From positions 1,469,501-1,533,500 of the forward strand of contig NZ_CP045875.1 in NCBI RefSeq assembly GCF_009649955.1: a stretch of DNA of 64,000 nucleotides, written 5' to 3'. This document shows positions 3,809-62,135 of the stretch, piece by piece. Source of the DNA: Heliorestis convoluta (GTDB taxonomy: Bacteria; Bacillota; Desulfitobacteriia; Heliobacteriales; Heliobacteriaceae). Position numbers and translations under genes: made by a program. Under the pieces are notes generated by a model. That model did no database searches, was not told the origin of the DNA, and saw nothing but the letters and a program-made list of their open reading frames with translations. Each line of letters begins with the position of its first letter. The stretch's first letter is position 1.

Positions 3809-3945
3809 TGCCGTTAAATAAAAATCAATGCCGTAATAAAAAACGGCAATAAATACCGTCCACAGTGACCTTGATTATTACCCCGTCAGCTATCGTAACA
3901 GACAGTGGTACTCACAATAGCCTACGGCAGAAGGGAGGTTTTGCT

Positions 3946-4362
3946 GTGAAGTCTAGAGAAGATGGCCGAGCTGTACTACATGCCTCACAACGGTTAGCAG
4001 CGGAGATGCTGGCTACGAACGATATTCACCAGAAAACGATGCAACAGATCGCCAACGAGGTCGGTATCGACATCCGAACGATTTACCGTTGGAAACAAGA
4101 CCCCGACTTTATCGAGTACCAGAACGATATTGCCGAAAAGGTAATGACCAGCTTCCTTGCCGAGACATACAACATCCTGCGAAATATCGTAAGGGGTAGC
4201 GATAGCGAACGTAACAAATTGCGAGCTATCGAGTTGGTCTTGAAGAACCAGGGCCGTATGACCGATGTTCAAAAAGTCGAGGCGAAAATCGAAGATGATC
4301 GGTCGAACGAGGCCATTGATGCCGAAATTGAACGGTTGAAAAAGCTACTAGGCCAAATATAG
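3946..4362 (+). CDS. phage HTH protein, phBC6A51-like / small-terminase-like
   Basis: The 138-aa protein has a clear helix-turn-helix, MQQIANEVGIDIRTIYRWKQDPDF (residues about 32-55). A helical segment and a charged C-terminus (EIERLKKLLGQI) follow. The GTG at 3946 follows AAGGGAGG with 7 bases of spacing and is preferred to the further-upstream codon at 3865. Proteins with this HTH family occur in Bacillus phages and some act as small terminase subunits. Here it lies 6 kb from the large terminase and next to the recombinase, so a regulatory role is equally possible. Confidence 0.65.
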   Translation: MKSREDGRAVLHASQRLAAEMLATNDIHQKTMQQIANEVGIDIRTIYRWKQDPDFIEYQNDIAEKVMTSFLAETYNILRNIVRGSDSERNKLRAIELVLKNQGRMTDVQKVEAKIEDDRSNEAIDAEIERLKKLLGQI

Positions 4363-4526: not shown

Positions 4527-5420
4527 ATGATTGATGATTTTATTAAGCAACTCGAACGGCAAGGCAAAGTTATCAAGACCCAAAAGGCGTATCGTAATAG
4601 CTGGACTCGCTTTACTGAATGGCTGGCGAAAGAGAACCCCCACCCCACCCCCCTTGGGGGCCTACCAGATCCCCAGATGGCCACACAACTGGACGTAGCA
4701 AATTTCAAAAGATACGCTGTAAGGCATTATAAGCCCAATACTGTAAACCTCACGATGACCCACCTGAACGTAATCTTCCGTTGGCTAATGCAAAAGGGCG
4801 TTATCCCCGACAACCCTGTAGAGCATATCGACAGAGTACCAACGCCTCAATCGTCCCCCAAGTGGCTAACAGGAGCTGAACAAAACAGCCTGGTTCGAAC
4901 GGTGAGGAAGTATGGCAATGTTCGAGAAATGGCGATGGTTATGCTGATGATGCAAGCAGGTCTGCGAGTACAGGAATTATGTGACCTACGGCTGAAAGAT
5001 ATCACAATCAGCGAACGAAAGGGCAAAGCTGTCGTTTACAACGGCAAACATGGCAAGTATCGTGAGGTGCCTTTGAACGTCGATATCAGGCGATGCCTTA
5101 CCAAGTATCTTGAAAGCCGTAGCAAAGAAAGCGAATATCTTTTTGATTCTCAGCGAAATGACAAAGTTTGTGTTCGAGCTGTCCAAAGCCAGATGGAGCG
5201 ATATAGAAAACTTACAGGCATTGACCACTTAACCTGCCATTCCCTACGGCATACATTCGGTCACGAACTAGCTTTACGGAAAACGCCTCTGGACGTAATT
5301 GCTAGGCTAATGGGACACATGAAAAACGATGGCACACCGAACTTGGCAATGACCGTCCGTTATACCTTGCCGAGTGAAGAAGATTTGGCAAGAGCTGTCG
5401 AGGAACTAAGCTGGACATAA
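4527..5420 (+). CDS. tyrosine recombinase / phage integrase
   Basis: The 297-aa protein has an N-terminal SAM-like core-binding half and a complete catalytic half: R147 (GLRVQEL), K177 (KHGKYRE), H238-x-x-R241 (HSLRHTF), H264 (LMGH) and Y279 (VRYT). It is compact like XerC/D and the TnpI resolvases of Tn3-family elements and lacks a long arm-binding domain. The ATG follows AAAGGAG with a 9-base gap. A 1-kb noncoding repeat array lies directly downstream, a good candidate for its recombination site. It could integrate the phage or resolve genome multimers. Confidence 0.9.
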   Translation: MIDDFIKQLERQGKVIKTQKAYRNSWTRFTEWLAKENPHPTPLGGLPDPQMATQLDVANFKRYAVRHYKPNTVNLTMTHLNVIFRWLMQKGVIPDNPVEHIDRVPTPQSSPKWLTGAEQNSLVRTVRKYGNVREMAMVMLMMQAGLRVQELCDLRLKDITISERKGKAVVYNGKHGKYREVPLNVDIRRCLTKYLESRSKESEYLFDSQRNDKVCVRAVQSQMERYRKLTGIDHLTCHSLRHTFGHELALRKTPLDVIARLMGHMKNDGTPNLAMTVRYTLPSEEDLARAVEELSWT

Positions 5421-5780: not shown

Positions 5781-6345
5781 TCAATGAAAAGATTAAAAAA
5801 ATAAGGTTATAAAGGCATAAAGTTAAATTACCAGAGCAACTAATCAACGAGATTACCCCTGTAAGGCTCATAATTGGGCTGTGTTCGGAGAACAGGTAAG
5901 GGAAGGCATATTCATGCCAAATGGGGTAACGAATCGAACATGGGCCAATCTACGAAGTAGCTGGATAAAGATGTAATAAGTATAGTCCACATGCCGTTAT
6001 ATTGTTTTGGATTTATCAACGGCTCAAAGCTTTTAGGCAGGCTGTTCTCTTAATCTATTCTTGTTCTTTTGGTTATTGTTAATCTGGTTCTTGTTACTGT
6101 AAAAGCCCTTTGACATGGTTACGTCGTAATCTTTTACTACCCTACGTCACGGATTTTGACTAGGTATTGGCTAAAAAGGCTAGAGGACGTCACGATTTTT
6201 TACTTGGATAGACCGGCTGTTTTGCAACAAATCACAGTCCTCTTCAAACCCTAAACAATGAACAAACATTGCACAACAAAAAGAGGTCTAGCCGTTACAA
6301 AAAATTGAAAGATCTTTCACCCAAACGAAGGAATTTGTAAGTGTA

Positions 6346-6352
6346 TGTCGAA
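6346..6352 (+). promoter_or_regulatory. Spo0A-box-like heptamer upstream of the Spo0E-like gene
   Basis: TGTCGAA is an exact match to the core of the Spo0A binding site. It lies 38 bases before the Spo0E-like start codon. A 7-base match can arise by chance, so this rests on its position and on the further matches at 31445 and 43151. Confidence 0.4.
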
Positions 6353-6389
6353 TTAAACAGATAGCACCATTTGAAAAGGGATGAGGTAT

Positions 6390-6569
6390 ATGAGGGAGAA
6401 ACTGGCTTTACTAAGGAAGATAGATAGAAAACGAAAAGCGATGTACCAAGCGATGGATAAAGGTCAAGATTACGAAATAGTCTACAAGCTATCCTGTGAA
6501 TTGGACGTATTGATCGTAGAATTTATCAAGAAATACCAGAAGAGAGATTTGATGCAATCAGCCTGTTAA
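6390..6569 (+). CDS. Spo0E-like aspartyl-phosphate phosphatase
   Basis: The 59-aa protein is two helices with the family signature SCELD (residues 35-39; SQELD in most members) inside YKLSCELDVLIVEF. The leading helix LLRKIDRKRKAMYQA precedes a KGQDYE turn. Spo0E-family proteins dephosphorylate Spo0A-P and so hold back sporulation; the signature Asp is present. ATG 6390 is 8 bases after AAGGGA and is preferred to ATG 6381. The gene stands alone, closed by a terminator. Carriage by a phage suggests it delays sporulation during infection. Length and signature fit the family well. Confidence 0.85.
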   Translation: MREKLALLRKIDRKRKAMYQAMDKGQDYEIVYKLSCELDVLIVEFIKKYQKRDLMQSAC

Positions 6570-6593: not shown

Positions 6594-6626
6594 GAGCATA
6601 GAACAAATAAGTCTATGCTCTTTTTC
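6594..6626 (+). terminator. intrinsic terminator after Spo0E-like gene
   Basis: GAGCATAGA pairs perfectly with TCTATGCTC, followed by TTTTTC. Confidence 0.85.
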
Positions 6627-6656: not shown

Positions 6657-8057
6657 ATGGCTTCTGTAAAATACGAAATATCCAAACGCTTCACCATGGA
6701 AAGCCCAATCACATCACGTACTCTCGCCATATCCGAAGCCTTCGGTATTTCCCTAGACGATGAGCAGACCTTTACCGTCTACGACAACGAAGAGATCACC
6801 ATAACCACTGGAGATATCGTTTACATTACAGGCGATTCAGGAAGTGGCAAATCCATACTGCTCCGTGAACTAAAACAGCGAATCCCCAACGGTATCAGCA
6901 ACAGCGAGCTTACCATCAACTCCGACCAGCCGATTATCGAAGCTGTCGGCAAAGACCTCGAAGAAGCCATGTATCTCTTATCGTTGGTGGGCTTAAACGA
7001 TGCTTTCATCTTCCTCCGTAAGTACAGCGAATTAAGCGATGGCCAGAAATATCGCTTTCAACTTGCTAAGTTACTAGAATCAAATGCCAACTGCTACTTC
7101 ATTGACGAATATTGTGCTTTGTTAGACCGAGAGACTGCAAAAGTAGTCTCTTTTAATATACAAAAAATCTGCCGTAAACTAGGCAAGACCTTGATTGTTG
7201 CCACAGCCCACACCGACCTTGCCGATGATTTACTACCTAACTTGCTAATCCGAAAAGGTTTAGAAAATGATGTTCAGGTGGAATATCGTAAAGTCCGAGA
7301 AAACCCACAATGCTCCCTCGTCGAAAAGCTAGAGCTGCTACCAGCTACCCTTGAAGATTACTACGTCCTATCCCGTTTTCATTATCGCCAAAGAAAAGTA
7401 CAAGCCGTTCAAGAAATCTACAAACTGGTCAACGGCAAGGAAATTGTAGGTGTTATCGTCTACGTCTACCCACCACTCGCTCTCGCAGGCCGTAACGTCG
7501 TAACCAGCCGGTATAAAGCAGCAACCAGCGAAGTAGCTCGTTTAATCAATCAAGAAGTTACAATGATTAGCCGGGTTGTTCTTCATCCGAAATATCGTGG
7601 CATTGGCCTTGGTACAAAGCTAATCAAAGATACTATGCCGTTAACAAGCAAGCGATATGTAGAAGCTCTGACGGTCATGGGCCGATATAACCCTTTTAAC
7701 GAAAAAGCTGGCCTTCGCAAAGTAGAGTACGAAACGAAAGATCGTTATAAAAAAGTAAGAAACCAACTCATTCTGCTTGGCTGGGATATGAAGATGGCTT
7801 CCACACGTCAATACAACCTCGATAAACTCAACGATCTCGACGAAGCTACCTACAAACTTCTGGCCGACCAAATCGTAACCAAAGTCCTGCAAGGTAGAAC
7901 TTACTGTGTCCGTGGTGGTGGGCGTAAAGGGAAAGTCAAAGATGGCAGCGATTTTATGAAAGAAGAAGTGGCCTCTATGATTAAAGAAATCGTACCGAAA
8001 GAAAAAGTATATTTAATCTGGGAAAACCCGGACTGGAATATGGAAGCTGTTGGCTAA
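6657..8057 (+). CDS. ABC-type ATPase fused to a GNAT acyltransferase
   Basis: The 466-aa soluble protein has a complete ABC ATPase: Walker A GDSGSGKS (59-66), signature LSDGQ (126-130), Walker B CYFIDEY (146-152) and H-loop TAHTD (about 183-187). A GNAT-like domain follows, with the acyl-CoA loop HPKYRGIGLGTKLI near 311-324. There are no membrane segments, so it is not a transporter. GNAT-fold proteins in phages include Mom, which modifies adenine in DNA, so a modification role is conceivable but unproven. The start has GGGGTG upstream. It opens a module with an amidoligase and a cyclotransferase that ends at the terminase. Confidence 0.8.
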   Translation: MASVKYEISKRFTMESPITSRTLAISEAFGISLDDEQTFTVYDNEEITITTGDIVYITGDSGSGKSILLRELKQRIPNGISNSELTINSDQPIIEAVGKDLEEAMYLLSLVGLNDAFIFLRKYSELSDGQKYRFQLAKLLESNANCYFIDEYCALLDRETAKVVSFNIQKICRKLGKTLIVATAHTDLADDLLPNLLIRKGLENDVQVEYRKVRENPQCSLVEKLELLPATLEDYYVLSRFHYRQRKVQAVQEIYKLVNGKEIVGVIVYVYPPLALAGRNVVTSRYKAATSEVARLINQEVTMISRVVLHPKYRGIGLGTKLIKDTMPLTSKRYVEALTVMGRYNPFNEKAGLRKVEYETKDRYKKVRNQLILLGWDMKMASTRQYNLDKLNDLDEATYKLLADQIVTKVLQGRTYCVRGGGRKGKVKDGSDFMKEEVASMIKEIVPKEKVYLIWENPDWNMEAVG

Positions 8058-8189: not shown

Positions 8190-9032
8190 ATGAGTAACAG
8201 CACAAGCTTCAACAACGAGAGAACCTTCGGAGTAGAAATTGAATTTTTCGGAGTTCACTACAGCAAAGTTATCGAAGCCCTCACCAACAAAGGCATCAAC
8301 GTAAGACACGAATCATACAACCATGTAACAAGACGACACTGGAAACTGGTATATGATTCAAGCGTAACAAGAAGAGACACAGGCAATCATGGTGGAGGCC
8401 ACGAACTTGTATCACCCATCTTAAAAGGCCAAGAGGGATTGAAGGAACTGAGAATCGTAATGGAAGCCTTACAAGAAATCGGGGGGAAAGTAGACAAAAC
8501 TTGCGGAATCCATGTACACCACGATGCAGGCGATATGAAACTCGAAAACTTCAAGAACATCTACACCATGTATTACAAATTTGAGAAATGGATTGATACC
8601 CTCTTACCACCAAGCAGACGAGGAAACGGCAATACATACTGCAAATCCATCGAAAAATACAAAATGGAGGCCATAATCAATGCCAATAGCATGAACGACT
8701 TGCAGATGATACTTAACAGCCGATACCTAAAATTGAACATTCAATCCTACTGGACACATGGAACGCTAGAGTTCAGACAACATGGCGGATCGTTAGAACC
8801 TGAAAAAGTAACCAACTGGATCATCTTTAGCCAATCCATTGTAGAAAGATCAAAAGGCACCAAGGTTCGCCTTAGCCATGATAGAGATAGCGTAGACTTG
8901 GACAAGCAAGAAAGAAGATTTCGCAGAATGATCTTTGGCGACTACAAAGCCGGATGCCTCGACAATGAATACGGACAAGCCTTCCAGTACCAAGTAGAGC
9001 GGAGACAACACTTTTTAAGCCGGGTCGCATAA
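8190..9032 (+). CDS. amidoligase-family enzyme (Amidoligase_2, glutamine-synthetase-like fold)
   Basis: The 280-aa protein starts with the metal-binding strand FGVEIEF. It then shows GGGHELVSPIL (about 68-78), CGIHVHHDAG (about 103-112) and EFRQHGG (about 198-204), the motifs of the phage and plasmid amidoligase_2 family. These enzymes are predicted ATP-dependent carboxylate-amine ligases that add amino acids or peptides to an unknown target. The gene prefers AGA over CGN arginine codons, unlike its neighbours, which suggests separate acquisition. ATG 8190 follows GAGGGAGAG. A 5'-truncated, otherwise near-identical copy lies at 52552-52920. Confidence 0.85.
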   Translation: MSNSTSFNNERTFGVEIEFFGVHYSKVIEALTNKGINVRHESYNHVTRRHWKLVYDSSVTRRDTGNHGGGHELVSPILKGQEGLKELRIVMEALQEIGGKVDKTCGIHVHHDAGDMKLENFKNIYTMYYKFEKWIDTLLPPSRRGNGNTYCKSIEKYKMEAIINANSMNDLQMILNSRYLKLNIQSYWTHGTLEFRQHGGSLEPEKVTNWIIFSQSIVERSKGTKVRLSHDRDSVDLDKQERRFRRMIFGDYKAGCLDNEYGQAFQYQVERRQHFLSRVA

Positions 9033-9419: not shown

Positions 9420-9496
9420 TCTAAAACAGTTTACAAATAAAGTAAAAGGAGATATAACAGACCTAACCTAAGTACAAGCAGAAGGAGATGTTACAG

Positions 9497-9994
9497 TTGT
9501 TTTATAAAAAGATGAAAAAACGAACGACCCATTTACCACTTTTGTATTTTGCCTACGGCTCCAATCTGCACAAAGAACAGATGCAAATACGATGTCCTGA
9601 TAGCGTACCTCTTTGCAGAGCTACCGTTTATGACTACATCTTAACCTTTCGAGGCAATCGCAGAGGCGTTGGTGTAGCTGATATTATCCCAACGAACAAA
9701 AGCCAAGTGGAAGGGGCTTTATATCGGGTTTCCTTACGAGACTTACGAAACCTTGACCGATATGAAGGCTACCCTACTTTATATCGACGCTACCCCATTG
9801 AAGTGGAAACAGAAGATGGCATAAAAGAAGCCTTTGTCTATCGGATGAATGAAGAGTTTACTTTTGCTCCACCATATGAAAAATACTTTCATACCATAAG
9901 CGAAGGCTACGACCATTGGGGAATCAATGAAGAGGACTTATTAACAGCAAGACAAAAAGTAACCAACCTTATTCTTGGAAAAAAAGCAAACTAA
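9497..9994 (+). CDS. gamma-glutamylcyclotransferase / AIG2-like enzyme
   Basis: The protein has the signature LYFAYGSNLHKEQM near the N-terminus, a VEGALYRVS strand with the family glutamate, and LDRYEGYPTLYRR. Enzymes of this fold cyclise and release gamma-glutamyl groups from amines or peptides. I prefer TTG 9497, nine bases after AAGGAG, to ATG 9488, which has no room for a ribosome site. Beside an amidoligase it could remove or trim the gamma-glutamyl-type linkages that enzyme makes. Only its last codons survive in the copy near 53330. Confidence 0.85.
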   Translation: MFYKKMKKRTTHLPLLYFAYGSNLHKEQMQIRCPDSVPLCRATVYDYILTFRGNRRGVGVADIIPTNKSQVEGALYRVSLRDLRNLDRYEGYPTLYRRYPIEVETEDGIKEAFVYRMNEEFTFAPPYEKYFHTISEGYDHWGINEEDLLTARQKVTNLILGKKAN

Positions 9995-10182: not shown

Positions 10183-11883
10183 ATCAATACAGAAGAAAGA
10201 AAAGAACGGATTCTCCGATTGGAAGAACGATGTCGACTGATTGGATCGGTTCAAGACCAATATGGCTTAGATAAAAAAATGCAAGACCAGTACATTGCTG
10301 ATATGAAGGAGCTTTTTCGCTTACGACGAATTGAACGAGCCGAATCAGATGTACTGTCTTTTATCTATGAATACTTTTCTGACGACTTAAACCCTGAAAA
10401 CGACCAAAACCTCATTCCTGCCGGAACATCTTATGAGCAAGCACCAAAATTTCACCAAGAACTTTGTAACCTTCTTCGTACCGTTTCTATTGATAACCCT
10501 ACAGCAAGAATTGCATGGGCAGCACCAAGGGGCCACGCCAAATCTGCCTATCTATCGAACTGTTTTCCTATACACCAGATTGTATTCAACAAACGAAAGT
10601 ACATCTTGATTATTTCAGAAACCGATTCCATGGCAAAGAAGTTCATCGAGTGGATATCGTTGCAACTTAAATTCAATCAAAAGCTACGAGCCGACTTTGG
10701 TGAGATTCTTTCGGAAAGAAAGTCGATGAACGAACGAGATAACCAAGAGGCTTTCCTAACGAGAAACGGTATTTTAGTTGAAGCAGCATCTATGGGCAAA
10801 CAGCTTCGTGGTAAAAGAAACGGCTCTTACCGGCCCGACCTCGTTATCCTTGACGATCTAGAATCAGCAAAAAACACGAACACGCCAGAGCTGCGAGATA
10901 AAAACCTTCACTGGTTTAACTCCGTCATTATGCCGATTGGCGATCCAGCCAAGACAGCTTTTATCTACATGGGGACGATTGTTCATCCTAGAGGCTTGTT
11001 GCCGACGGTTTTACAGAGAGCAGATTTTGAATCTCGTATCTATTCAGCCATTGTTTCTTATCCTGAGAAAGAAGATTTGTGGGAGCAATTTGAAACGATC
11101 TGTCGTAATCCAGAGAAAGAAAATCGTCTGGAAGAAGCGATGAATTTTTATAAAACCAATCAAAGTGAAATGGATCAAGGCGTCGAGGTCTTATGGCCCG
11201 GACGCTTTTCTTATGCCCGTTTGATGACAGAAAAGATCAATATCGGCTCAAGAGCCTTTGGTTCAGAGTTTCTCAACAATCCAGTAGACGAAGAAAGCCA
11301 GATCTTTAAGCCCAGTATGTTTACCTTTTTCGATTATGGCGATCTAAAAAATGACCAAGGTAGACCTTTACCTCTTGATTACTTCGGAGCTTGGGATATA
11401 GCGATGGGTAAGTCCAACCGAAGTGACTACAATGCCATCGTTACCATCGCTAGAGATCGTAAAACAGGCATCTTATATGTCGTTGATAGCTGGGCCAAAA
11501 AGTGTCCTGCCCATGAAGCCCTAAACGTCTTGGTTGATAAAGTAAAAAAGTATCATCATAGAGTCTTTGCCATAGAAACAGTACAAGCTCAATTTGATTT
11601 TTTCCGTCAAGCAAGAGAACGACTGGCCAGTGAAGGTGTCTATACGACCAAGCTCAAAGCCGTAACGAGCCGAACGAAAAAAGAAGAACGGATTGAGTCC
11701 CTAGAACCTGTTATCGAGCAAGGCATCTTACGTTTTATGAGACACCAACGACTGCTTTTAGAAATGCTAGAGCAATTCCCCAACCACGACCACGATGATT
11801 TGCCTGATGCTTTGCAGATGGCGGTTGAACTTTGTGGCAACGGTCGACGAAGAACCTTCCATAAAAAACCCCTTGGCTTGTAA
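10183..11883 (+). CDS. terL: phage terminase large subunit, probable ATC start
   Basis: The protein has an ATPase half with Walker-A-like PRGHAKSAYLSN and Walker B LVILDDLE. The RNase-H-like nuclease half begins GAWDIAMGKSNRSDYNA and ends with the acidic DLPDALQMAVEL. It cuts and pumps phage DNA into proheads. The frame is open from 10183 and reads I-N-T-E-E-R-K-E-R-I-L-R-L-E-E-R before the first canonical codon, TTG 10219, which has no ribosome site. GGAGG (10170-10174) lies 8 bases before ATC 10183, so ATC may be the start. A decayed second copy lies at 53538-53965. Confidence 0.93.
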   Translation: MNTEERKERILRLEERCRLIGSVQDQYGLDKKMQDQYIADMKELFRLRRIERAESDVLSFIYEYFSDDLNPENDQNLIPAGTSYEQAPKFHQELCNLLRTVSIDNPTARIAWAAPRGHAKSAYLSNCFPIHQIVFNKRKYILIISETDSMAKKFIEWISLQLKFNQKLRADFGEILSERKSMNERDNQEAFLTRNGILVEAASMGKQLRGKRNGSYRPDLVILDDLESAKNTNTPELRDKNLHWFNSVIMPIGDPAKTAFIYMGTIVHPRGLLPTVLQRADFESRIYSAIVSYPEKEDLWEQFETICRNPEKENRLEEAMNFYKTNQSEMDQGVEVLWPGRFSYARLMTEKINIGSRAFGSEFLNNPVDEESQIFKPSMFTFFDYGDLKNDQGRPLPLDYFGAWDIAMGKSNRSDYNAIVTIARDRKTGILYVVDSWAKKCPAHEALNVLVDKVKKYHHRVFAIETVQAQFDFFRQARERLASEGVYTTKLKAVTSRTKKEERIESLEPVIEQGILRFMRHQRLLLEMLEQFPNHDHDDLPDALQMAVELCGNGRRRTFHKKPLGL

Positions 11884-26210: not shown

Positions 26211-26234
26211 TTCATACCCCTTTTTCGATATGAA
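26211..26234. promoter_or_regulatory. regulatory dyad upstream of the replication genes
   Basis: TTCATA and TATGAA flank CCCCTTTTTCGA, a perfect 6-base dyad. A 17-base identical stretch (TCATACCCCTTTTTCGA) recurs before the sigma-like gene at 31433, and the CTTTCGACATGAA part recurs at 43148. It probably binds a phage regulator. The embedded TTCGATA is one base off a Spo0A box. Confidence 0.6.
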
Positions 26235-30850: not shown

Positions 30851-31255
30851 CTAAGAGTTTTTCTCATCGTCAAGGAGTTTATACAAATCATGTAAATAAT
30901 CGTATAGCTCCTGTTTTTTATCTTCCGGAATTTTTTTATGCTTGCCAATACCCACAAGTGTTTTTAAGAGCATTGGCTCATTTCCTAACACAACTCTTGC
31001 TGCAATAGGGATTTTACCAAACTTGGCAAAGAGAACGTCTTCTTCGAGGTCGTAAAAATCCGCCAACTGATGAATGAGATGATCGCTGGGAGATTTTAAT
31101 CCTCTTTCAAGCTCTGATAAATAAGGGGCACCAACACCAACCTCTTTGCTTAATTGAGCCAGAGAAAGCTCTTTTTTCAACCGTAATTCTTTGAGGTATT
31201 GACCAGCACTAGCAAGAAGCAGTAACTCTTTGGAGCGATCTTCTAGGTTGGTCAA
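30851..31255 (-). CDS. XRE-family phage repressor
   Basis: The 134-aa protein has a clean HTH_3 domain: GQYLKELRLKKELSLAQLSKE, then VGAPYLSELERGLKSPS (about 18-58). A helical C-terminal domain likely drives oligomerisation. The start is TTG 31255 with AAAGGA ten bases upstream. It is transcribed away from the sigma-like gene, with two palindromic operators between them, the usual switch layout. There is no peptidase domain, so induction would not be by self-cleavage. Confidence 0.88.
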   Translation of the reverse strand: MTNLEDRSKELLLLASAGQYLKELRLKKELSLAQLSKEVGVGAPYLSELERGLKSPSDHLIHQLADFYDLEEDVLFAKFGKIPIAARVVLGNEPMLLKTLVGIGKHKKIPEDKKQELYDYLHDLYKLLDDEKNS

Positions 31256-31432: not shown

Positions 31433-31455
31433 TCATACCCCTTTTTCGACATGAA
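31433..31455. promoter_or_regulatory. shared regulatory motif with an exact Spo0A box
   Basis: TCATACCCCTTTTTCGA is identical to 26212-26228 and continues CATGAA. TTCGACA (31445-31451) is the exact reverse of TGTCGAA. The site lies 39 bases before the sigma-like gene. Confidence 0.55.
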
Positions 31456-43147: not shown

Positions 43148-43161
43148 TCTTTCGACATGAA
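43148..43161. promoter_or_regulatory. shared motif with exact Spo0A-box core
   Basis: TTCGACATGAA (TTCGACA at 43151-43157) matches the motif before 31494 and, with one change, before 26255. It lies 37 bases upstream of the next start codon. Confidence 0.5.
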
Positions 43162-45232: not shown

Positions 45233-45256
45233 AATAAACAAAAGGTGGTTGATTGG

Positions 45257-46066
45257 GTGAGGGAGTACGTAACGAAGATAATGTTTGGAATCATAATAAT
45301 CGCCTTCTTAGCTTTCATTGTAGCTGGAACAGCAAATGCAAACTCGTTGTATAACGTAAAAGCAGGCGATTCGCTGTGGAGGATTGCCACGAATCATGGA
45401 ACGACGGTTCAACAGATTCGAGAGTTGAACGGCTTAACTGGCGATATGATTCTTGTAGGGCAGAGCTTAAAGTTACCTCAACCAGCTTATAGAGTACAGT
45501 CGGGGGATACATTGTTTAGAATTGCACAGCACCAAGGCGTAACCTTGGTTGAGTTGATAAGGGCCAATAATCTTACGAATCCGAACATGCTTTACGTAGG
45601 GCAGTTAATCAACGTACCTAATCAGCCTACGGCAACACCAACACAACCAACTCCTACACCACAGCCAGTACCGACTCCAACATCACAACCTGACTTTGCA
45701 GAACAGGTGGCCAACTTGGTTAACGTAGAAAGAGCCAAAGCAGGGTTACGACCTTTACGATACGATGCCGAGTTAAGCAAAGTAGCGTTGATTAAGGCAC
45801 AGGATATGATACAGAATAATTACTTCTCCCATACGTCACCTACTCATGGATCACCGTTCGATATGATGAAAAGCTATGGGATTCGATATACAACGGCAGG
45901 CGAGAATATTGCAAGGGGACAGCGAACGCCACAGGAAGTTATGACGGCATGGATGAATAGTTCAGGACATAGGGCGAATATTTTGAATGCGAACTTTGAT
46001 ACCATCGGTGTAGGGTACTATCAAGGAGCATGGGTACAGATGTTTACGAGAAGCGTGGGGCACTAA
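45257..46066 (+). CDS. secreted LysM-LysM-CAP protein
   Basis: The 269-aa protein has a signal peptide (FGIIIIAFLAFIVAGTANA). Two LysM domains follow (YNVKAGDSLWRIA near 33; YRVQSGDTLFRIA near 78), then a P/T/Q-rich linker and a CAP/SCP-like domain with FSHTSPTHGSPFDMM, TAGENIARG, WMNSSGHRANIL and IGVGYY. It would bind peptidoglycan outside the cell. GTG 45257 is 8 bases after AAAGGTGG. Close relatives exist among spore-coat and YkwD-like proteins. It is unusual in a phage. Confidence 0.85.
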   Translation: MREYVTKIMFGIIIIAFLAFIVAGTANANSLYNVKAGDSLWRIATNHGTTVQQIRELNGLTGDMILVGQSLKLPQPAYRVQSGDTLFRIAQHQGVTLVELIRANNLTNPNMLYVGQLINVPNQPTATPTQPTPTPQPVPTPTSQPDFAEQVANLVNVERAKAGLRPLRYDAELSKVALIKAQDMIQNNYFSHTSPTHGSPFDMMKSYGIRYTTAGENIARGQRTPQEVMTAWMNSSGHRANILNANFDTIGVGYYQGAWVQMFTRSVGH

Positions 46067-50099: not shown

Positions 50100-51326
50100 T
50101 CAACTTCCCCATGCCGTAACTCTGCTGTTTTCCCTCATCGCCACCCCAATCTTCTCAACAGCATTGACCTTCAACCTCTGCGAAACACAGCCGTACTTCT
50201 CCATGAAATAATCCAAGCTGTCAATTCCCATCAACTCCTGTATAACCTCTGGTCGGACCTCCATCTCTAGCAGGTGAACAGCGAATGTTTTCCGTAAAGA
50301 AAATAGGCTATATAAAGGAAGGTTTGATTTAGCCAGCAGTTGATGAAATTTCCTCGTAAGGTTCCGTTGTAGAACTGCCGTCCCTTTCGACGTTGTAATC
50401 ACAAAGCCTGTATCTACATATTGCTCGCCAGCAAGTTGCCTATCGTAATCCTGATAGACCTTCCATCGTTGCAATGCTTTGATAAGATGGCTGTTTAACG
50501 GTATCTGCCGTTGATGATCTTTTCTGTTCGCTTCTTGCAGAATAACTTTGTAGTTATTGCCGTTAACTACAGTATCATCATCGTTTCTAACCCTTACGGC
50601 AGATAAGCGAAGGTCGATGAATTTTTTATCGAGATCCACATCATCCCACCGTAAGGCCAGCAGTTCGCCAACTCGTAACCCCGTTCCCAGCAACAGTTGA
50701 AAAGCGATACACAGCCTGTCCTCTTTGGCGATGGCAAGGAAAGTGGCCATTTCCGTTGGACTCATATAGGCCATATCGGTATTAGCGTTATCCTCTTCTT
50801 TACGTGGTTTATGTACGGTGTCGGCAATGTTGACCATTACATGACCTTCTTCAACAGCTTTCCGTAATGCCGACCTAGCCGTAATCAAAATCAATTCGAC
50901 CATTCGATTGGATAAGCCTGATTGTAGTTTGTCGTTAAGCAAAGTTTGTAGTTGTGATGTTTCTAAAGCTGTAAGGGAACAGTGGCCCAACGTAGGCTTT
51001 AAGTGGTTGTTTACGATATAGCTGTGGTTCTCCCATGTTCGTGGCCGGACGTTGGGCTTTACATGGTCTTTTAACCAAAGGTCTAGCCAATCGGAAAAGG
51101 ACAGTTCTTTCGGTAGGTCTGGTACAGTGATGATATTCGGTTGTAGCTGTTGGTCGGCAAGAACAGTTGCTTTCCAAGCTACAGCATCGTCGTAATCCTT
51201 GAAGGATTTACGTTTGTAGTCGTGTTTGCCGTTGGCTTTCTTTCCTACGTAGATTTGAGCTATCCAGTAGCCGTCCTTACGTTGATAGATGCTGCCTTCG
51301 CCCTTATGGTTACGTTCCCTAGACAT
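50100..51326 (-). CDS. tyrosine integrase (family B), full length, altered active site
   Basis: The 408-aa protein has an AP2-like N-terminus (GEGSIYQRKDGYWIAQIYVG), a SAM-like domain and a catalytic domain with GTGLRVGELLALRW. The box that normally reads H-x-L-R-H-T is FSLRKTF, and the L-G-H box is LMGID; the nucleophile region is MEKYGCVS. Two catalytic histidines are thus missing. It is either a divergent or a dying enzyme. Two broken relatives lie at 59354 and 61555. ATG follows AAAGGAG. Confidence 0.85.
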   Translation of the reverse strand: MSRERNHKGEGSIYQRKDGYWIAQIYVGKKANGKHDYKRKSFKDYDDAVAWKATVLADQQLQPNIITVPDLPKELSFSDWLDLWLKDHVKPNVRPRTWENHSYIVNNHLKPTLGHCSLTALETSQLQTLLNDKLQSGLSNRMVELILITARSALRKAVEEGHVMVNIADTVHKPRKEEDNANTDMAYMSPTEMATFLAIAKEDRLCIAFQLLLGTGLRVGELLALRWDDVDLDKKFIDLRLSAVRVRNDDDTVVNGNNYKVILQEANRKDHQRQIPLNSHLIKALQRWKVYQDYDRQLAGEQYVDTGFVITTSKGTAVLQRNLTRKFHQLLAKSNLPLYSLFSLRKTFAVHLLEMEVRPEVIQELMGIDSLDYFMEKYGCVSQRLKVNAVEKIGVAMRENSRVTAWGS

Positions 51327-51410: not shown

Positions 51411-51532
51411 GGGATTCTGGTTGTAATAGATGAAGAAGTAAAAGGCTACATTATAAGGCGATTAAATGGTGAATTGCAAATTTAATCATGGTAAAATAAA
51501 CACAAATCAACAATAAGATGGGTGATATCCTG

Positions 51533-52495: not shown

Positions 52496-52551
52496 AGTTT
52501 AGCGGGCAGCAGTCACATTCTAACTATAAGGCACGATATTAAGCAAACAAA

Positions 52552-52920
52552 AAGGAGGCCATAATCAATGCCAATAGCATAAACGACTTGCAGATGATAC
52601 TGAACAGCCGATACCTAAAATTGAACATTCAATCTTACTGGACACATGGAACGCTAGAGTTCAGACAGCATGGAGGATCGCTAGATGGCGAAAAAGTAAC
52701 CAACTGGATCATCTTTAGCCAATCCATTGTAGAAAGATCAAAAGGCACCAAGGTTCGCCTTAGCCATGATAGAGATAGCGTAGACTTAGACAAGCAAGAA
52801 AGAAGATTTCGCAGAATGATCTTTGGTAACTACAAAGCCGGATGCCTCGACAATGAATACGGACAAGCCTTCCAATACCAAGTAGAGCGGAGACAACACT
52901 TTTTAAGCCGGGTCGCATAA
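52552..52920 (+). pseudogene. amidoligase remnant (3' half)
   Basis: From AGGAGGCCATAATCAATGCC onward the DNA is over 95 percent identical to 8667-9032, including the stop codon. The 5' half with FGVEIEF is gone. It begins the decayed copy of the phage amidoligase-to-portal region. Confidence 0.9.
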
Positions 52921-52963
52921 AACCCGGCTTCCTCCCCAATAAACAAGTTAGGAGAAGGGTATA

Positions 52964-53242
52964 ATGGCTGTAGTAACAACAGAGAGGTTGTATTCATTGC
53001 TTAGAGTCACCTTAAATGACGGAACGGTTCTGAACGGCTCAACCTATGAAGAGGTCGTAAAAAATCTTTGGCATGATTCTTGGGATGCAGCAACGACCGT
53101 AGAAGAATACATGGAAAAAGTGCAAAAGCGAGTGATTATCCAAACTGGCGATTCCATCGATTTTCACGACCATGAATCTTTTATTAAAGAGCTTGCAAGA
53201 GTAAAACTGGTTACCACAATTGAAACCGATATAGCACACTAG
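52964..53242 (+). CDS. second copy of the 92-aa amidoligase-module protein
   Basis: The protein is nearly identical to 9077-9355 (few changes such as MMERL to TTERL and ITFHD to IDFHD). It is intact with its ribosome site, although its neighbours are truncated. Confidence 0.75.
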   Translation: MAVVTTERLYSLLRVTLNDGTVLNGSTYEEVVKNLWHDSWDAATTVEEYMEKVQKRVIIQTGDSIDFHDHESFIKELARVKLVTTIETDIAH

Positions 53243-53329
53243 CAAATCCTTCTGGCGATAGATAAGCTTGCAGGGCATCGTTGAATAAGCGATGCCTCTT
53301 TTTTTATCTAAAACAGTTTACAAATAATC

Positions 53330-53394
53330 AACAAGGACTTATTAACAGCTAAACAAAAAGAAACCAACCTTATTCTTGGGAAAAGAACAATTTA
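53330..53394 (+). pseudogene. cyclotransferase remnant, last codons
   Basis: Bases match 9936-9994 (DLLTARQKVTNLILGKK region). All of the gene before this has been deleted, joining the terminator after the 92-aa gene to its tail. Confidence 0.75.
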
Positions 53395-53537
53395 ATCCAC
53401 ATAAAACGACAAACAGCCTGTGGATAATGTGGACAATGTGAATAAATAAGAACGCTACAGATTCAATTCTGTGGCGATTTTTATTTTATCCCCATAAAGG
53501 GATTTGCTCTATAAAACGGTGGTCACAGTTGGGCATA

Positions 53538-53965
53538 CCCTACAGCTAGAATTGCCTGGGCAGCACCGAGGGGCCACGCCAAATCTGCCTATCTATCGAA
53601 CTGTTTTCCCATACACCAGATTGTGTTCAACAAACGAAAGTACATCTTGATTATTTCAGAAACCGAATCCATGGCGAAGAAGTTCATCGAATGGATATCG
53701 CTGCAGCTCAAATTCAATCAAAAGTTACGGGCTGATTTTGAAGTTCGTATCTATTCAGCCATTGTTTCTTATCCAGAGAAAGAAGATTTGTGGGAGCAAT
53801 TTGAAACGATCTGTCGTAATCCAGAGAAAGAAAATCGTCTGGAAGAAGCGATGAATTTTTATAAATCCCATCAAAGTGAAATGGATCAAGGCGTCGAGGT
53901 CTTATGGCCCGGACGCTTTTCTTATGCCCGTTTGATGATAGAAAAGGTCAACATCGGCTCAAGAG
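53538..53965 (+). pseudogene. terminase large subunit remnant with internal deletion
   Basis: The DNA matches 10497-10697 and then 11026-11252, skipping about 330 bases. The N-terminal codons and the nuclease half are lost. The join at GATTTTGA falls in a short match between the two ends. Confidence 0.9.
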
Positions 53966-54219
53966 TGTTCCGGCAGGCACGTTGGGTGAAGATGAACGAG
54001 GCAATCCCATCTTTCGAGTAGGTATTGATAAAGTCTTTGAAATGATGGGTAAAGATGAAGTGATTCCTCAATACATCACGTGGGATGGTCAACTGCAAGC
54101 TGCCTTTACAGAGCTAGAACATTTAATCAAGATGCTTTTAATCAATGCAGAAATACCGGAAATCGTTTTGGGTGTAGGTGATGCCGGAACCAGTGGTGCT
54201 TCTGGTCTAGCGATCAAAT
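53966..54219 (+). pseudogene. portal protein remnant
   Basis: The DNA matches 12788-13041 and is fused straight after the terminase remnant. It ends at GCGATCAAAT, after which unrelated sequence begins. Confidence 0.9.
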
Positions 54220-54337
54220 CGTTGCTGCTTTATACCATTTTGTTACGATGTTACGGCCTGCCAAAGCCAGTGTCATCTTCTTGAGTTTTCCTCTTTAACG
54301 TCCCACCGTCCGATGCTAAAATAAGGATAGAGAAGCA

Positions 54338-59353: not shown

Positions 59354-60289
59354 TCACGTCGTAACCACAAAGCCTGAATCTACATACTGCTCACCAGCAA
59401 GTTGCCTATCGTAATCCTGATAGACTTTCCACCGTTGTAATGCTTTGATAAGATGGCTGTTTAACGGTATCTGCCGTTGATGATCTTTTCTGTTCGCTTC
59501 TTGCAGAATAACTTTGTAGTTATTGCCGTTCACTACAGTTTCATCATCGTTTCTGACCCTTACAGCAGATAAGCGAAGGTCAATGATCTTTTTATCGAGA
59601 TCCACGTCATCCCACCGAAGGGCCAGCAGTTCGCCAACTCGTAAGCCCGTTCCCAGCAACAGTTGAAAGGCAATACACAGCCTGTCCTCTTTGGCGATGG
59701 CAAGGAAAGTGGCCATTTCCGTTGGACTAATATAGGCCATATCGGTGTTGGTGCTATCCCCTTCTTTTCGTGGCTTATGTACGGTATCAGCAATGTTGAC
59801 CGTTACATGACCTTCTTCAACAGCTTTTCGTAATGCCGACCTAGCTGTAATCAAAATCAATTCGACCATTCGATTGGATAAGCCTGATTGTAGTTTGTCG
59901 TTAAGCAAAGTTTGTAGTTGTGATGTTTCTAATGCTGTAAGGGAACAGTGGCCCAACGTAGGCTTTAAGTGGTTGTTTACGATATAGCTGTGGTTCTCCC
60001 ATGTTCGTGGCCGGACGTTGGGCTTTACGTGATCTCTTAGCCAAAGGGCTAGCCAATCGGAAAAGGACAGTTCTTTCGGTGGTTCAGGTATGGTGATGTT
60101 CGGTTGTAGCTGTTGGTCGGCAAGGACAGTGGCTTTCCAAGCTACGGCATCATCGTAATCCTTGAAGGATTTACGTTTGTAGTCGTGTTTGCCGTTGGCT
60201 TTCTTGCCAATGTAGATTTGAACTATCCAGTAGCCGTCCTTACGTTGATAAATGCTACCTTCGCCTTTACGGTTACGTTCCCTAGACAT
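59354..60289 (-). pseudogene. tyrosine integrase (family B), C-terminally truncated
   Basis: It is about 95 percent identical to the 50100 integrase from M-S-R-E-R-N through V-D-S-G-F-V-V-T-T, then ends. The last 100 residues with the remaining catalytic boxes are lost. ATG 60289 follows AAAGGAG. Confidence 0.88.
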
Positions 60290-60374
60290 AACGGCTGCTC
60301 CTTTCACAGTTGTAGTTGGTGGTTAACTGTTGTTGGGGCAGTTGTAGTTTATCTAGGGTGGGGGAAAAGTGAAG
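60290..60374. repeat. integrase B leader repeat, copy 2
   Basis: Matches 51327-51410 and 62014-62099. Copies 2 and 3 stay alike further, through a promoter with BlaI-type operators. Confidence 0.75.
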
Positions 60375-60410
60375 GGGGGAAAACAGTATCCAAAAAAATG
60401 AAATTAACCA

Positions 60411-60461
60411 TTGACTTTCCAACCTACGCACTGTAGACTAAAAAAGACTACAAAGCGTAGG
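60411..60461 (+). promoter_or_regulatory. promoter with BlaI-type operators
   Basis: TTGACT (60411) and TAGACT (60434) are 17 bases apart. CTACGCACTGTAG overlaps the -10 box and CTACAAAGCGTAG follows 24 bases on; each is a dyad of the TACA/TGTA type bound by BlaI/MecI repressors. It drives the secreted protein gene at 60493. Confidence 0.65.
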
Positions 60462-60492
60462 TATCGAATTAAAATGTTTGGGAGGGTTAATT

Positions 60493-61170
60493 ATGAGAAC
60501 ATACATTAAATTGCTTAGCTTAGTAGTATCACTCTGTTTATTACTATCATTTGTAGGACCAAGTTTCGCAGCTAGCGTAGAAACTCATTATATCGATGGA
60601 AAAGTAATTAAAACCGAGGTTTTGGTTGACAATGAGTCAGTAAGAAAAGTCAAAGTAACTGAAAATAATGAAAAAACTGTTATAACTACATACGACAAAA
60701 CTTCTGGTAACTTAGAAATATTGGAAACAGATAATCAAACTGCAGAAATCAAAATAACTAATCTTAACGTTCAGAGTGGCGAATCGACTAGTATCGGAGT
60801 ACAATCGTCTTTCTTGCATAAAGAGGGATTATTTTTTGATGGAAGCTATATTATTAGTGGCTCATATTGGCAAATTTATAACAGCAATGATCAAAGAAAG
60901 TTTCTGACATTAACCACGAGTAATAGTACTAATTTGAATAACTTTAAAACAGCAATAGATAATATGGTTGAAAGAGAAAGATCAGCGATTGCTGCGGGTG
61001 GTACTACAATAGTGTCAACTGTGGTAGCTTTATTTACAACACCGCCGGGACTTTCTGTACTCCTTTCTACAGTAACAGCCCTAGGAGGAACGGTCACTAC
61101 AGGAATTATCCTTTGGAATGCCTATGACTATCAAAAAGAGGCTGACTACTATTGGGGACAGGCTAGGTAG
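60493..61170 (+). CDS. secreted bacteriocin-like protein
   Basis: The 225-aa protein has a signal peptide (LLSLVVSLCLLLSFVGPSFA). A beta-rich, T/N-rich middle and a C-terminal glycine-rich hydrophobic segment follow (AIAAGGTTIVSTVVALFTTP to GGTVTTGIILW), able to insert into membranes. This resembles large secreted antimicrobial proteins of the geobacillin-26 type; the match is by pattern only. A small membrane protein follows directly. ATG 60493 follows GGGAGGG. Confidence 0.6.
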   Translation: MRTYIKLLSLVVSLCLLLSFVGPSFAASVETHYIDGKVIKTEVLVDNESVRKVKVTENNEKTVITTYDKTSGNLEILETDNQTAEIKITNLNVQSGESTSIGVQSSFLHKEGLFFDGSYIISGSYWQIYNSNDQRKFLTLTTSNSTNLNNFKTAIDNMVERERSAIAAGGTTIVSTVVALFTTPPGLSVLLSTVTALGGTVTTGIILWNAYDYQKEADYYWGQAR

Positions 61171-61176
61171 GATTTT

Positions 61177-61368
61177 ATGAAGACACTCAATAAAATCCTT
61201 ATGTTAATAGCACCAATTATTGTAGCTGCGTTAGCAATCTTTAATATTTATCGATGGTATCTACAGAATTTAGATCAAAAAAGCACAGCCTTGTTTTTAG
61301 TTCTTATAGTGACAGCAGGTTCCCTTTTTTGGTTTGTTGTTGCCCTATTTGTTTTTTTTATAAATTAA
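61177..61368 (+). CDS. small membrane protein, possible immunity partner
   Basis: The 63-aa protein has two membrane helices (ILMLIAPIIVAALAIFNIY; ALFLVLIVTAGSLFWFVVAL). It starts six bases after the secreted protein gene, so the two are co-expressed. Immunity is inferred from context. Confidence 0.55.
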   Translation: MKTLNKILMLIAPIIVAALAIFNIYRWYLQNLDQKSTALFLVLIVTAGSLFWFVVALFVFFIN

Positions 61369-61513
61369 AATACGGTATATACTCATGTCTTAATTACAAT
61401 CTTTTTTTCCAATGAAGACGTAGGCATTTGTCAATCACCTCTTACAGCAATTGTAAGAGAGAATTCAGTATAAATATAGTTCAGTCGTAAAAGCCCACGT
61501 TACGAAAAAAGAA

Positions 61514-61538
61514 GCCCGTCAGAAATGACGGGTTTTGT
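61514..61538. terminator. repeat hairpin, copy 6 (shortened)
   Basis: CCCGTCA pairs with TGACGGG across GAAA, followed by TTTTG. Confidence 0.7.
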
Positions 61539-61554
61539 CGTATCCAATTAGCAA

Positions 61555-62013
61555 TCATCGCTGATCCAGTTGTCCATAGGATTTTGTTTTAGCTTCTGGC
61601 CATCGTTGCTTATGTACGGTGTCGGCAATATTGACCGTTACATGACCTTCTTCAACAGCTTTTCGTAAAGCCGACCTAGCTGTAATTAAAAACAATTCGA
61701 CCATTCGATTGGATAAGCCTGATTGTAGTTGGTCGTTAAGCAAAGTTTGTAGTTGTGACGTTTCTAAAGCTGTTAGGGAACAGTGGCCCAACGTAGGCTT
61801 TAGTTGGTTGTTGACGATGTAGCTGTGGTTCAGCTGTTGGTCGGCAAGGACAGTGGCTTTCCAAGCTACGGCATCGTCGTAATCCTTGAAGGATTTACGT
61901 TTGTAGTCGTGTTTGCCGTTAGCTTTCTTTCCGATGTAGATTTGAGCTACCCAGTAGCCGTCCTTACGTTGATAAATGCTGCCCTCGCCTTTACGGTTAC
62001 GTTCCCTAGACAT
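61555..62013 (-). pseudogene. tyrosine integrase (family B), deleted
   Basis: It matches the 50100 integrase but jumps from VLADQQL to NHSYIVNN (about 40 codons lost) and breaks off after VNIADTVHK. No catalytic domain remains. Confidence 0.88.
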
Positions 62014-62135
62014 AACGGCTGCTCCTTTCACAGTTGTAGTTGGTGGTTAACTGTTGTTGGGGCAGTTGTAGTTTATCTAGGGTGAGGGGAGAAGTGAAGG
62101 GGGAAAATAGTGTCCAAAAAAATTGAAATTAACCA

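Follow-up and report, generated by a model that had tools for sequence, protein, structure and literature searches.

In Bacillus subtilis, Spo0E dephosphorylates Spo0A~P, and its gene is part of a loop that also includes spo0A and abrB (PMC3269414). Spo0A activation is also limited by Spo0E in C. difficile (PMC12772354). The described family members (B. subtilis Spo0E, YisI, and YnzD; PDB 2bzb and 2c0s) have the same length, two-helix fold, and SxELDxLI signature as the Heliorestis convoluta protein analyzed here; unlike theirs, the Heliorestis gene is carried by a prophage behind a predicted sigma-H promoter. Another phage-borne case is Brevibacillus phage SecTim467, whose gp70 is likewise a PF09388 protein (40.1 bits) and was reported to be 96% similar to Spo0E of the host, B. 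laterosporus (PMC4909266). However, SecTim467 is a 130-kb Jenstvirus with the gene at a different genome place, and no sigma-H element was recognized when the stretch upstream of its spo0E was read by eye.

Other sporulation regulators carried by phages, namely, sigF/sigG homologues and truncated spo0A, are aimed at the host sporulation decision (PMC10294663, whose text does not contain the term Spo0E). These act on transcription, whereas a Spo0E would act on Spo0A phosphorylation. Phage phi29 likewise uses the sporulation-entry state of the host as a signal, through Spo0A sites in its promoters (PMC9437464); in Heliorestis, by comparison, the phage is temperate, and one of its cargo genes alone is predicted to receive the signal, via sigma-H, and to oppose sporulation. 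Phage effects on host dormancy have been studied mainly via sigma-factor and Spo0A homologues. Phage spo0E is already known from SecTim467, and sporulation regulators on phages are a well-established topic (PMC10294663); what is new in Heliorestis is that the gene brings a predicted sigma-H promoter with it, has the moron layout, and resides in a heliobacterial host. Heliobacteria make endospores, and H. convoluta HH is an endospore-forming phototroph (PMC7143216).

Prophage and its Spo0E-family gene

The window, i.e., the whole 64,000-nucleotide stretch analyzed, covers bases 1469501-1533500 of the 3,218,981-base single-contig genome. The spo0E-like gene lies in a 55.4-kb prophage (genome 1465493-1520911) that has a tRNA cluster to its left and contains head, tail, lysis, replication, and DNA-metabolism genes. 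The features discussed below are as follows (window coordinates).

3865-4362, plus strand: terminase small subunit, terS (PHROG terminase small subunit, E 4.7e-22), left border of the packaging module
4527-5420, plus strand: tyrosine recombinase between terS and terL (Pfam Phage_integrase, 3.3e-33)
6327-6355, plus strand: predicted sigma-H promoter, -35 GAAGGAATT at 6327-6335, 11-base spacer, -10 GTCGAATTA at 6347-6355
6346-6352, plus strand: TGTCGAA, a 0A-box-like core overlapping the sigma-H -10
6390-6569, plus strand: spo0E-like gene, 59 aa (PF09388, 43.9 bits)
6594-6625, plus strand: intrinsic terminator, 9-bp stem GAGCATAGA/TCTATGCTC followed by T5
6657-8057, plus strand: ABC-ATPase/GNAT fusion, the next cargo gene after the spo0E-like gene (profile matches; homologue in L128 56% identical)
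10219-11883, plus strand: terminase large subunit, terL (PHROG 38, E 2.4e-99), right border of the cargo slot
26223-26234, 31444-31455, and 43150-43161, plus strand: TTTCGAYATGAA element (alignment of the three sites)
50100-51326, minus strand: integrase at the right prophage end (Pfam profile match), attR core just beyond
Ending at 51411: attR core GGGGAGAAGTGAAG, just past the 50100-51326 integrase (shared repeat end)

Three copies of a related integrase were found, all ending in GGGGAGAAGTGAAG or a near-identical sequence. At all three places (genome 1465492, window 51411, and about window 60375), the last base of the repeat is the same. We read the stretch between the first two repeats as one prophage; the product of 50100-51326 is the probable attachment-site integrase. 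The initial annotation had located the small gene close to the integrase in a complete phage genome. The prophage is real, but its left 4 kb falls outside the window, and the recombinase at 4527 belongs to the conserved phage genes, with its place between terS and terL. This second tyrosine recombinase keeps its terS-terL position in heliobacterial phages (loci L113-L118, L120-L122, L124, and L126), with 47-67% identity to the same-place homologues in related Heliobacterium and Heliophilum prophages. The product of 45245-46066, labeled "sporulation protein" in PHROGs, contains LysM and CAP domains and was set aside.

The 59-aa protein is, by sequence, a genuine Spo0E-family member. Its match to PF09388 exceeds the cut-off of 23 bits and covers profile positions 1-42 of 42, and the family signature claimed for this reading frame was borne out. 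The signature YKLSCELDVLIVEF is present, and the S-x-E-L-D motif is intact as SCELD, its S, E, and D being invariant across eight heliobacterial copies. An alternative in-frame ATG at 6381 would give 62 aa; the ribosome-binding stretch AAGGGATGAGG suits ATG 6390 better. Counted from these two starts, the Asp of the motif is D39 (59 aa) or D42 (62 aa). A family profile built for this analysis matched PDB 2bzb, a solved Spo0E-family structure (E 1.1e-6, 31 bits), and the predicted model of the protein is a confident two-helix hairpin (helices 2-26 and 31-60, pLDDT 89), so both the model and the profile match agree with the antiparallel two-helix fold of 2bzb. A fold search with the model returned generic helical hairpins only, the hairpin being too simple to discriminate. 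The protein likely acts as a Spo0A~P phosphatase.

Predicted promoter of the gene and the 0A-box-like sites

Sigma-H promoters have a spacing of 11-12 bases between their two elements. The stretch 6327-6355 matches RNAGGAWWW-N11-RNNGAATWW exactly, and this was the one perfect match in the window, where 0.03 were expected by chance; the hexamer consensus (RNAGGAWWW/RNNGAATWW) was used as printed in PMC8510167. Upstream of each of the 16 heliobacterial spo0E genes examined (nine genomes) is a sigma-H-like element whose spacer is 11 bases long and which agrees with 16-18 of the 18 consensus positions. Among these 16 promoters, the first T of TGTCGAA is variable, while GAA and the AGG of the -35 are invariant. 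With a relaxed consensus, the whole genome gave 39 matches, compared with 15 for the reversed control. The 39 matches precede two spo0E copies and, among others, two genes that we took by eye to be spoVS and minC and used as positive controls. The host encodes both Spo0A (428 bits) and sigma-H (382 bits). The phage gene is predicted to be switched on from a sigma-H promoter of the kind that the host uses early in sporulation, not from the Spo0A site of the initial annotation. Such a promoter appears common to heliobacterial spo0E genes, a rule unstated in the papers found. Downstream, the terminator at 6594-6625 folds with -15.7 kcal/mol (z -3.5); a terminator pattern scan with a loop limit of 8 bases missed it, as its loop has 9.

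It had been proposed that Spo0A~P controls four phage sites (6346, 26224, 31445, and 43151) and that the phage in turn dephosphorylates Spo0A. The sites themselves are all present: TGTCGAA at 6346 (start codon 28-37 bases further on), exact cores at 31445 and 43151 (minus strand), and a one-off match at 26224. However, the window contained 6 TGTCGAA, when 8.7 were expected, and 84 of 100 shuffles had as many. Thus, for the window as a whole, the outcome that would refute the proposal, 0A cores no commoner than chance, was obtained. Of the five copies within the prophage, three fall between genes (binomial P 0.013; intergenic shuffles P 0.03), but two of these three belong to a longer shared phage motif and one to the sigma-H promoter.

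The longer motif is the TTTCGAYATGAA element, of which 26224, 31445, and 43151 are parts. Its copies at 26223, 31444, and 43150 have similar flanks, with ACAA..TCATACCCCTTTTTCGAYATGAA in two of them, and sit shortly before the gene starts of three phage operons or transcription units. Outside these three, the 3.2-Mb chromosome has one further copy of the 13-base form, which includes the following Y. The element is likely a phage promoter or operator, perhaps the target of the 30851-31255 repressor or of the 31494 sigma-like protein. The intergenic bias of the exact cores (P 0.01-0.03) and the precedent of Spo0A-regulated phi29 promoters (PMC9437464) speak for a four-site Spo0A regulon. Nevertheless, with no enrichment in the window, three sites forming pieces of a phage element with conserved flanks, and the fourth forming the sigma-H -10, each promoter site is explained by another element, so that such a regulon was rejected and the proposed model is very improbable. 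What survives is that the phage may read sporulation entry through sigma-H, possibly with Spo0A binding over the -10, and not through four Spo0A sites.

Cargo slot and other spo0E copies

The related phages were sampled with TerL, giving 14 loci in named genomes and 9 viral contigs. Heliobacterial phages of this kind share one gene arrangement: methyltransferase, terS, recombinase (4527 homologue), terL, portal, and capsid, with variable content between recombinase and terL. The spo0E cassette occupies this variable cargo slot. No spo0E was found by HMM scan in any of the 23 loci, in which positive controls were detected, nor near 14 full-length terL matches in four other heliobacterial genomes, as those four genomes hold only ancestral-type copies or a copy by mutL/miaA (L049). 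Since the gene is absent from these 23 loci and 14 terL neighborhoods, it looks like Heliorestis-specific cargo; its absence from the 23 loci also indicates that it is not a general requirement of the phage family. With a predicted promoter and terminator of its own, a slot between conserved phage genes, and absence from 23 relatives, the gene is a predicted autonomous "moron" cassette of promoter, gene, and terminator. The closest cultured phages are Halcyonevirus and relatives (Paenibacillus larvae phages Halcyone and Tripp), which resemble this prophage in the major capsid protein (67-68%) and in size (about 55 kb). Halcyone differs: across 50 kb of its genome, no gene is annotated as spo0E, and terS and terL have no recombinase between them.

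The rest of the slot holds the ABC-ATPase/GNAT gene (6657-8057), an amidoligase (8190-9032), and a gamma-glutamyl cyclotransferase (9488-9994). The latter two are common to L128 and L124, and the ABC gene also occurs in L128, an IMG/VR contig. Searches of viral contigs with the Spo0E protein and alignment found no relative, and those with the ABC protein found no match. When phages were searched by tblastn, neither the protein nor a consensus Spo0E gave a credible match even at E 10, although this search is insensitive to so short a protein, missing the SecTim467 Spo0E in the same collection. A plasmid tblastn gave no credible match either, which is weak evidence for a short query.

Three further spo0E copies lie on the host chromosome. 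One (L002) adjoins tgt/secDF and is the ancestral-type copy found in other heliobacterial genomes, another (L001) adjoins lemA/htpX, and the third (L004) lies in the scrambled remains of a relative of this phage. In a FastTree of 15 sequences, which was poorly resolved, the phage gene fell among the Heliorestis accessory copies. L004 is collinear with the phage cassette over 951 bp at 85% nucleotide identity, a stretch that runs from the promoter through gene and terminator into the ABC gene. The reading frame is kept, and the terminator stem is identical while its loop differs. For this pair, dN was about 0.1, dS 0.7-1.6, and dN/dS about 0.06-0.16, rough values from 53 codons that point to purifying selection. 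Family membership, intact motif, selection, and prophage context thus back the claim that the phage encodes a Spo0E-like protein. As the pair includes a copy outside an intact phage, the selection could have acted for the host.

Many highly identical short pieces of this phage's genes, in shuffled order, were also observed beside the prophage (52548-54220 and 59357-62103) and at one other chromosomal place (loci L011 and L045). These are probably the traces of related phages that repeatedly integrated and then decayed.

Possible role in sporulation entry

We consider it probable that the cassette is a lysogenic-conversion moron, in which sigma-H-driven Spo0E delays host sporulation. With its own promoter and terminator, spo0E could be transcribed from an otherwise silent prophage, so that expression is predicted without prophage induction. 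A starving lysogen would raise sigma-H, and sigma-H RNA polymerase would then read the cassette. The phage Spo0E would dephosphorylate host Spo0A~P and slow its rise, by which sporulation entry would be delayed or reduced, and the cell would stay available for phage production. A prophage Spo0E behind a sporulation-entry promoter would give a lysogen a small, direct means of postponing sporulation and would extend phage dormancy control to phototrophic heliobacteria. Counting against such a brake, the host has three further spo0E genes, and one extra copy may change little; in B. subtilis, deletion of yisI or ynzD had no discernible effect on sporulation deferral (PMC3269414).

The same three host copies, together with the lack of spo0E in all related phages found, would suit a mere passenger, i.e., a host cassette caught by the phage with no effect on phage fitness. 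This is doubtful, as promoter, gene, and terminator have stayed intact in two related elements at a dS of about 0.7-1.6 with a dN/dS of 0.06-0.16. Since the protein is a divergent family member (31 bits to 2bzb) and the host has dozens of receiver domains, the target might also be a response regulator other than Spo0A, or regulation might occur without phosphatase activity; the intact signature motif and a sigma-H promoter that places the gene in the sporulation-entry circuit make this improbable.

A further possibility, which is unlikely, is that Spo0A~P binds GTCGAA over the sigma-H -10 and turns the gene off when Spo0A~P is high, so that the brake would be active only between the rise of sigma-H and commitment. 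Of the 16 heliobacterial spo0E promoters, 14 keep GTCGAA even though T and C are not required by the sigma-H consensus, and TC occupies that -10 position in only 3 of the 37 other consensus matches of the genome. Exact TGTCGAA also occurred 11 times near spo0E genes, against an expectation of 0.8 for the 16 together. Three exact cores lie in the 330 bases that precede the host copy L001 (L009 8080-8324; P 5e-5 in shuffles). However, this excess is mostly the shared -10 itself, and with the -10 masked no core remains before the phage gene. Moreover, the first T of the 0A box is missing from the -10 of all ancestral-type copies, and the spo0E loci are related, so that the counts are not independent. 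The 14 promoters and the three cores at L001 are the reasons for still considering Spo0A involvement. In its fullest form, which is equally unlikely, the cassette would be a self-limiting sporulation timer of the phage: sigma-H would fire it at the onset of sporulation entry, Spo0A would be dephosphorylated, and Spo0A~P, once it prevails, would shut it via GTCGAA. If true, the phage would own a feedback loop by which sporulation is put off but not prevented.

Among further relatives from the same class (L014, L017, L024, and L026-L031), TTCGACA, the reverse of the 0A box, recurs about 105-186 bases upstream of spo0E, where it sometimes overlaps a possible sigma-A -35.
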